Source: Thermoplasmata archaeon | GTDB taxonomy: Archaea; Thermoplasmatota; Thermoplasmata; RBG-16-68-12; JAGMCJ01 | Assembly: GCA_023130895.1 (NCBI GenBank) | Contig: JAGMAI010000055.1 | Location: 1 to 34,496 of the forward strand | Length of the DNA stretch: 34,496 nt | Direction of reading: 5' to 3' | In this document: piece after piece, positions 14,283-20,119 of the stretch | How the letters are laid out: each line of letters begins with the position of its first letter | Position numbering within the stretch: the stretch's first letter is position 1 | The notes under the pieces: generated by a model | Databases searched by the model: none | Seen by the model: the letters and a program-made list of their open reading frames with translations, nothing else | What the model was told of the DNA's origin: nothing | Program-made: the position numbers and the translations under genes

Positions 14283-14292
14283 CTTTAAATAT
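14283..14292 (+). promoter_or_regulatory. TATA-box candidate for the small RNA at 14314-14389
   Basis: ctttaaatat lies about 26 nt upstream of the GGGGAG start of the structured element. Confidence 0.6.
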
Positions 14293-14313
14293 AGGTGAGA
14301 GAATATATCGAAT

Positions 14314-14389
14314 GGGGAGTTTTGGGCTAGTTCGTTAGAGTGCATCCCATCCCTTCTGACAAGGCTAGCCCTCCCTTTTCTATTTTTTG
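14314..14389 (+). ncRNA. Candidate structured small RNA with nested stems and T-rich 3' end
   Basis: Nested complementarity: GGGA 14315-14318/TCCC 14372-14375; GGGCTAG 14324-14330/CTAGCCC 14365-14371; GTTAGA 14334-14339/TCTGAC 14355-14360 (one G-U); 15-nt loop GTGCATCCCATCCCT; followed by TTTTCTATTTTTT at 14376-14388. No overlap with a credible CDS. Confidence 0.6.
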
Positions 14390-18949: not shown

Positions 18950-19831
18950 TCAGCGGTAGTTCTTCAAGGCCCTTTCCGTCAGCTTTCGACCGATTCTCTC
19001 GCGATCCTCGACCGTTGTGGTGCTCTTTTTCTCCTGCCCCTTTGCCTTGGTCTTCGCACGTTTGCCCGGTTTCGATGACGGCTTGGCAGGGGTCGCGGCC
19101 CGTTTCCCTTGACCACTAGCCTTCTTGCCTGATGCGACGGGAATCTTCTTCATCGACCCGAGGGTCGTCTGTTGTCCCTCATCCCATCCCCTCGGGGCAG
19201 GTGACTTGGCGGCCGCGAAGGGCGAGTTGTATTGTCCCGCCACTATCACCGTGGGGACGCCTGCTCTGGTATACTCCATCTCAGTCCTTCTCTGGGAGGA
19301 GACCACGCCACCTATGTATGCGAAGATCACGGTCACGAGATAGCCATTGAGTCCCAGCCCAAGCGTTAGAGCCAGTGATTCCACGAAAGTCGTCACGTAC
19401 ACGGCCACGAATTCGATGTAAGGAGCAAGAACGGGAACGTTGGCGTGTAGGGCTGAGGCAATGTAGGAGGGGACGCCAGCCACATAGGATATCTCCTCTG
19501 TGAGTATCCCTTGATCTGCCATGGCCAACACAGCAATGAAGATGGCAACAGGGATGAATGCCGCAATGGCTCCTTTCCATGGCCCTCCCGCCCTCCTGCC
19601 ACCAACGTAGCCGGCGATCATCTGCCCGAAGGTTGGCATCCACCAGAGGAAGAGAGAAAGGACGAATGTGTACTGCACGGCACTCCAGAAGCCATACGGT
19701 GGATGGGACTCAATAGCCACTCTTCGCGAGTAAGTGTCTCTTCGACCGACATTCAAGACTCCCGAATCCATCAGCTTCATGGTGGTCTTATCGGCGGTCT
19801 TCGACTTCCTCTTCCGGCGCGTCATTCCCAT
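18950..19831 (-). CDS. Polytopic membrane protein with long basic Lys/Pro/Ala-rich C-terminal tail
   Basis: About 4 hydrophobic segments (VQYTFVLSLFLWWMPTFGQMIAGY; AIAAFIPVAIFIAVLAMA; VLAPYIEFVAVYVTTFVESLALTLGLGL; LVTVIFAYIGGVV) then GKKASGQGKRAATPAKPSSKPGKRAKTKAKGQEKK. ATG 19831 or 19825 preferred over TTG 19840. Confidence 0.65.
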   Translation of the reverse strand: MGMTRRKRKSKTADKTTMKLMDSGVLNVGRRDTYSRRVAIESHPPYGFWSAVQYTFVLSLFLWWMPTFGQMIAGYVGGRRAGGPWKGAIAAFIPVAIFIAVLAMADQGILTEEISYVAGVPSYIASALHANVPVLAPYIEFVAVYVTTFVESLALTLGLGLNGYLVTVIFAYIGGVVSSQRRTEMEYTRAGVPTVIVAGQYNSPFAAAKSPAPRGWDEGQQTTLGSMKKIPVASGKKASGQGKRAATPAKPSSKPGKRAKTKAKGQEKKSTTTVEDRERIGRKLTERALKNYR

Positions 19832-20011: not shown

Positions 20012-20119
20012 TCCCGACTCCCGGATTTGAACCGGGGATCTGCTGATATCGGCCGAGACCGGAAAGACTCCGGGAACCAACTACAGTCAGCCGCTCTAGC
20101 CAGTCTAAGCTAAGTCGGG
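20012..20119 (-). tRNA. tRNA-Tyr (GTA) with 33-nt intron at 37/38
   Basis: Minus strand: acceptor CCCGACT/AGTCGGG + A; D-stem GCTT/GAGC; anticodon stem GCTGA/TCAGC; loop CTGTAG-[intron 20048-20080]-A; T-arm CCCGG-TTCAAAT-CCGGG. C1:G72 pair fits archaeal tRNA-Tyr. Confidence 0.92.

Follow-up and report, generated by a model that had tools for sequence, protein, structure and literature searches.

A conserved hairpin RNA of Thermoplasmatota, probably an ancient antisense regulator of cell division in archaea

What lies between a COG1340-like gene and srp54 in this Thermoplasmata genome? A preliminary description of the window (the whole 34,496-nt stretch of DNA analysed) had placed an undescribed structured RNA there, at 14283–14389, and suggested that its exposed loop could pair with G-rich ribosome-binding sites or other RNAs. 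We asked whether such an RNA is kept in relatives, whether it forms a unit of its own, and with what it might pair.

A hairpin RNA gene at 14314–14386

The three nested stems of the preliminary description are all present, on the plus strand. The outer stem P1 pairs GGGGA (14314–14318) with TCCCT (14372–14376) in the predicted fold. Stem P2, which is supported by covariation, pairs GGGCTAG (14324–14330) with CTAGCCC (14365–14371) and is lengthened by two G-U pairs. Stem P3, which contains two G-U pairs and is supported by both fold and covariation, joins GTTAGAG (14334–14340) to TTCTGAC (14354–14360). The pyrimidine-rich loop is C-rich as claimed, but its open part measures 13 nt rather than 15, a count that had included the closing G-U pair; this near-invariant loop (UGCAUCCCAUCCC / TGCATCCCATCCC, 14341–14353) is defined by the alignment, the folds and an antisense match described below. 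A TATA-like box, TTTAAATA (14284–14291), does lie ~26 nt 5’ of the first G of the outer stem, and the T-rich tract reported after the last stem (14376–14388) is likely a terminator, with T-rich tracts also found 3’ of the hairpin in most relatives. A covariance model matches 14312–14386 with 93.5 bits; the ends of the RNA gene, 14314–14386, are inferred from the promoter spacing, the outer stem and the T tract.

Folding energy alone makes only a modest case for the hairpin: its MFE of -25.2 kcal/mol corresponds to a z of -2.26 in a dinucleotide-shuffle test, with the opposite strand close behind (z -1.51). What raises the hairpin far above chance is comparison: DNA matches, covariance-model matches and stem covariation. 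A DNA search matched it in 54 of 61 related genomes, and the covariance model, built from 27 distinct aligned copies, matches 200 of the 400 class genomes and 203 of the 296 sampled across the phylum Thermoplasmatota, although outside the class many of these matches are weak, with per-genome E-values of 1e-4 to 1e-6. The RNA gene, roughly 65 nt long, thereby occurs in the majority of the phylum sample. Among the matches listed, the TAGAGTGCATCCCATCCC records in the GTDB collection include Methanomassiliicoccales, halophilic Thermoplasmatota and other uncultured Thermoplasmata.

In the 27 distinct aligned copies the core GAGTGCATCCCATCC is invariant while the stems vary. With no more than these 27 sequences the covariation signal was weak and RNAalifold yielded no pairs; a set of 66 distinct sequences resolved the matter. 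In this larger set 90.0% of stem cells are paired, compared to 84.3% after shuffling, double changes occur in 10 of 13 stem pairs, and none of 500 shuffles equals the observed covariation score. P2 alone has compensatory double changes in five of its seven pairs, with 96.9% of cells paired. Because this alignment was fitted to the covariance model it favours the structure; folding without an alignment, however, gives at least 12 pairs around the loop in all 67 copies folded and leaves the loop predicted unpaired in nearly all of them. A near-identical loop is thus carried on stems as diverse as GGGCTAG/CTAGCCC, ACAGACCGG/CCGGTCTGT and GTGAACGGG/CCCGTTCAC. Phylum-wide conservation of the paired positions and abundant compensatory changes were what the preliminary description had made its proposal depend on, and both hold.

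Some genomes seem to hold more than one copy. Members of family f48 (for example G505, G528 and G530) have 2–5 matches to the RNA model per genome, and in G505 and G476 the two copies examined in each are both RNA-like with different stems, which suggests paralogous RNAs.

The RNA had been described as stand-alone rather than as a leader of srp54. The gene order COG1340–RNA–srp54 is common, and a TATA-like box stands 50–60 nt 5’ of the loop core in most of 42 loci examined. Copies also occur where srp54, the COG1340-like gene or both are undetected within 1.5 kb, and because the hairpin (always) and the TATA-like box (mostly) are kept there, the RNA behaves as its own unit, as had been claimed. 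Transcription from its own promoter is an inference from the promoter-like box and the T tract only, in the absence of transcript data.

The earlier exclusions also stand: ARAGORN and Rfam make no call of a tRNA on the hairpin, and no family model matches it as SRP RNA. The hairpin belongs to no Rfam family and we found no description of it in the literature searched, in keeping with its having been called undescribed. Elsewhere in the window, a 108-base Rfam tRNA match beside tRNA-Phe (20012–20119, minus strand), missed by ARAGORN, is probably an intron-containing tRNA gene.

The antisense site in the cdrS-like/ftsZ operon

The first DNA search gave additional exact matches of 20–24 nt besides the RNA genes. 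Read on the opposite strand, these are complementary to the loop together with the 3’ stem arm, and they lie between a small ribbon-helix-helix (RHH) gene and a gene of the FtsZ family that share one strand; the loci were annotated with HMMs of RHH and FtsZ proteins. For the loop the complementary sequence is GGGATGGGATGCA, located between a CdrS-like RHH gene and ftsZ. The window's own genome contains exactly two copies of the 15-mer AAGGGATGGGATGCA (a count that, like all our genome-wide counts, rests on pattern searches): opposite the RNA loop, and at 19011–19025 of contig C224, which is not the contig of the RNA gene. The C224 site lies 47 nt 5’ of an ftsZ start whose Shine-Dalgarno sequence is GGAGG. 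Thus the loop does have a G-rich complementary partner, as had been suggested, but this is the cdrS-like/ftsZ intercistronic site and no ribosome-binding site.

The site is present in 67 of 114 distinct RHH–FtsZ loci examined, 41–209 nt upstream of the ftsZ start, and another 10 sites stand downstream of an RHH gene where no ftsZ was detected, in at least two cases at a contig end. Over all loci examined every one of the 77 sites is antisense to the RNA and none is in reverse orientation; a reversed control of the 21-nt pattern, allowing up to three mismatches, gave no match in 61 genomes. The absence of reversed sites is the more robust figure, since sampling was not blind and many loci were chosen for carrying the site, so that 67/114 is no population frequency. 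For most of the extra matches the preceding gene is an RHH gene. Those of L400, L401 and L403, which depart from this, have one or two mismatches in the core, and L402 is most plausibly the diverged RNA gene itself. A site overlapping the FtsZ start in L171 has two mismatches and was judged to be chance.

The form of the site differs between families. In the Methanomassiliicoccales-type families f24, f29 and f30 the 13-mer is exact in most loci examined, and in other classes (f48, f69) the site is exact and lies ~20 nt past the RHH stop. Family f11 has only shorter GGGATGGGA sites, some of them 5’ of the RHH gene, and the target may have moved there; in the f11 loci L381, L382, L384 and L385 short sites of this type occur both upstream of the RHH start and downstream. 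Families f9, f12, f19 and f26 keep the RNA, and no site was recognised in their FtsZ loci examined. For families f15 and f22 no RNA match appears in their genomes among those listed in the class and phylum scans; a PF00091 search found no tubulin-family gene in the f22 genome G059, and the f15 genome G045 has an RHH–FtsZ locus (L386) without the antisense site.

In eight loci of f8, f24, f29 and f16 (L425, L429, L430, L431, L434, L435, L438 and L404) the antisense site recurs at a second RHH gene that seems to stand alone, ~10–20 nt past the stop codon of that gene and with no ftsZ detected behind it. Such a gene is a possible second target.

The identity of the two target genes rests on unequal grounds. 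The upstream RHH protein is nearest to NCBIfam CdrS, but the protein of the window's own genome scores 35.6 bits against the NF058555 cut-off of 100 bits and all nine family members match this model weakly, short of what assignment as CdrS takes; we call it CdrS-like by synteny. The downstream protein has a tubulin/FtsZ GTPase domain (PF00091, 98 bits), sufficient to name it FtsZ, and scores 154.8 bits with TIGR00065, below the equivalog cut-off of 295. This FtsZ is short in the window's order, 267 aa in its own genome as against ~360 aa in f16, f20 and f37. Correspondence to cdrS-ftsZ2 is by synteny only, the FtsZ2 assignment having been made without a tree. Darnell et al. report the cdrS-ftsZ2 locus across most archaea and show that it controls division in haloarchaea (PMC7439475).

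In the window's order and in f13 a predicted stem usually surrounds the site, mostly of 12–19 bp and shorter in some f4 predictions; its arms vary between families with complementarity retained; in Methanomassiliicoccales-type families a hairpin often stands 3’ of the site instead. Examples of the enclosing stem in the cdrS-like/ftsZ intergenic region are L161:1123–1273, L166:1269–1447 and L412:1087–1255. We noticed in passing that this predicted stem may be a cis-acting RNA element of its own. The alignment puts the Shine-Dalgarno sequence outside it, and the antisense site does not cover that sequence either. That the site is kept single-stranded could not be upheld, its unpaired probability being no higher than that of the flank (p = 0.30). 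We also considered the motif as coding sequence, since in some genomes it holds an ATG in frame with ftsZ (MGC...); this was rejected, as the frame is not conserved and downstream there is a better start, complete with Shine-Dalgarno sequence.

Covariation between RNA and target, and rival readings

The loop hardly varies, so most families are uninformative there and covariation of RNA with target rests on the flanks, mainly in f37. In f37 the RNAs have the sequence GGCATCCCATCCCCTCC, and most of the targets have GGAGGGGATGGGATGCC. The predicted duplex of L510 with L519 has 33 contiguous pairs and that of L511 with L520 at least 28; the stem arms of the two differ yet pair, GGCTGGTTGC with GCAACCAGCC and GGCTGGTAGC with GCTACCAGCC. 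In many families the P3 3’ arm (TTCTGAC in the window) is likewise complementary to the target, extending the duplex beyond the loop. Over 24 families the RNAs form stronger predicted duplexes with their own targets (mean -54.6 kcal/mol) than with swapped ones (-51.0 kcal/mol; p = 6e-5), and own duplexes are also the stronger within f37 (p = 1.2e-4). These p-values are only indicative, because the permutation leaves relatedness in.

A conserved structured RNA encoded apart from its target, and complementarity to the target mRNA kept by selection, are criteria for a trans-acting base-pairing sRNA, and both are met, the second by comparison. It is at this comparative level that the structured RNA, its near-invariant loop, the antisense site with its position and orientation, and the RNA–target covariation are established. 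Pairing of RNA and target is strongly supported on the same grounds, and its occurrence in the cell is inferred.

RHH proteins bind short DNA motifs. The shared 12–13-mer might therefore be a double-stranded operator through which the CdrS-like protein acts on its own operon and on the RNA gene without any RNA pairing, a reading encouraged by the fact that the site always lies behind an RHH gene. An operator, however, need not keep one orientation, whereas 77 of 77 sites have the same sense; nor does it explain why the motif in the RNA gene coincides precisely with the loop of a hairpin that covaries, or the 28–33 bp duplexes of f37 with their family-specific arms, and we regard this reading as improbable. 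The RNA might instead have a housekeeping role, as a guide (C/D or H/ACA) or as a structural RNA (tRNA-like or SRP-related), with its match to ftsZ coincidental. In favour of this is a CTGA at 14356–14359 that resembles box D, but the CTGA lies within stem P3 and is lost in other families, and the sequence has no box C, so the boxes C (RUGAUGA) and D (CUGA) with kink-turn of an archaeal C/D box sRNA are not there. With no Rfam match either, and with a match to one operon across families that the empty reversed control and the uniform sense make no coincidence, this already disfavoured reading is hardly credible. Mimicry of a 5S rRNA loop, suggested by CCCATCCC, was rejected: the 5S gene of the window's own genome has another sequence, and the secondary matches proved not to be 5S.

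Two other alternatives accept the pairing. The abundant cdrS-ftsZ mRNA might serve as a sponge or decay trigger that titrates an RNA whose main partner is another mRNA or a loop-binding protein. Since f9, f12, f19 and f26 keep the whole loop with no full site found, another constraint on the loop may indeed exist; no other conserved partner surfaced, though, since in the window's own genome the exact 15-mer recurs at the ftsZ site alone, and we hold the sponge unlikely. A little less unlikely is that the same pairing activates, opening a cis structure or protecting the mRNA and so raising ftsZ translation or stability. The long enclosing stem with compensated arms in the window's order and f13 could be remodelled by an antisense RNA, and the site leaves the Shine-Dalgarno sequence free; against this, that sequence falls outside the stem, which other families lack.

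Proposed role and relation to known systems

We conclude, with a probability of roughly 0.78, that 14314–14386 encodes a trans-acting antisense sRNA controlling the cdrS-like/ftsZ mRNA, of which transcription, pairing in the cell and the sign of the effect are inferred. The sRNA would be transcribed from its own promoter and end at the T-rich tract, and its long hairpin would hold the 13-nt C-rich loop open. This loop (14341–14353), the proposed antisense seed, would nucleate pairing with GGGAUGGGAUGCA in the intercistronic mRNA and, in some lineages, also just past the stop of solitary CdrS-like RHH genes, and the duplex would extend from the loop into the stem over about 12–33 bp. Most likely the duplex alters processing or stability of the mRNA, lowering output of the division operon and uncoupling the CdrS-like protein from FtsZ. 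An effect on cleavage or stability is favoured over direct occlusion because the site is far from the ribosome-binding site and also occurs behind solitary RHH genes. With the site no more single-stranded than its flank and the Shine-Dalgarno sequence uncovered, no simple route to repression is evident; repression is inferred to be the likelier sign, by somewhat better than even odds, with activation and processing without net repression sharing the remainder equally.

Small RNAs that base-pair with ftsZ mRNA are known in bacteria: DicF (PMC5069750), a Klebsiella cell-division sRNA (PMC10907235) and StfZ (PMC9628754). In contrast to these, the Thermoplasmatota RNA is archaeal, unrelated in sequence and structure and conserved phylum-wide, and its site lies in the cdrS-like/ftsZ intercistronic region, off the ribosome-binding site, with its effect inferred; the missing Rfam match also leaves homology to DicF without support. 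In archaea, sRNA162 of Methanosarcina mazei (PMC3510493) also acts in trans, on a bicistronic mRNA encoding a transcription factor; the Thermoplasmatota RNA differs in lineage, target and sequence, and has a phylum-wide hairpin and a covarying target.

The haloarchaeal cdrS-ftsZ2 locus (PMC7439475, PMC8406309) has an RHH regulator gene followed by ftsZ, as in the Thermoplasmata target, although the Thermoplasmatota RHH proteins score well below the cut-off for CdrS. A third report (PMC8303175) describes mRNA and ribosome occupancy that diverge during growth in Halobacterium and transcript processing close to the ftsZ2 start, which hints that an unidentified agent controls the operon post-transcriptionally. 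The accessible parts of all three describe no comparable trans-acting RNA.

Few archaeal small RNAs have known targets, and we know of none whose target is kept across a phylum. Base-pairing sRNAs, including bacterial ones that target ftsZ, are a known kind; an archaeal one that spans a phylum and covaries with a target in cell division is, to our knowledge, new. It is probable, if a little less so than the antisense role itself, that this is an ancestral Thermoplasmatota antisense RNA, paired with cdrS-like/ftsZ since early in the phylum and balancing the division regulator against FtsZ. The antisense model makes predictions at the level of single base pairs that can be tested in cultured Methanomassiliicoccales, and the RNA is a specific candidate for post-transcriptional control of cdrS-ftsZ in a phylum other than that of Halobacterium. 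If the model is true, this ancestral antisense RNA would be a conserved riboregulator of archaeal cell division.
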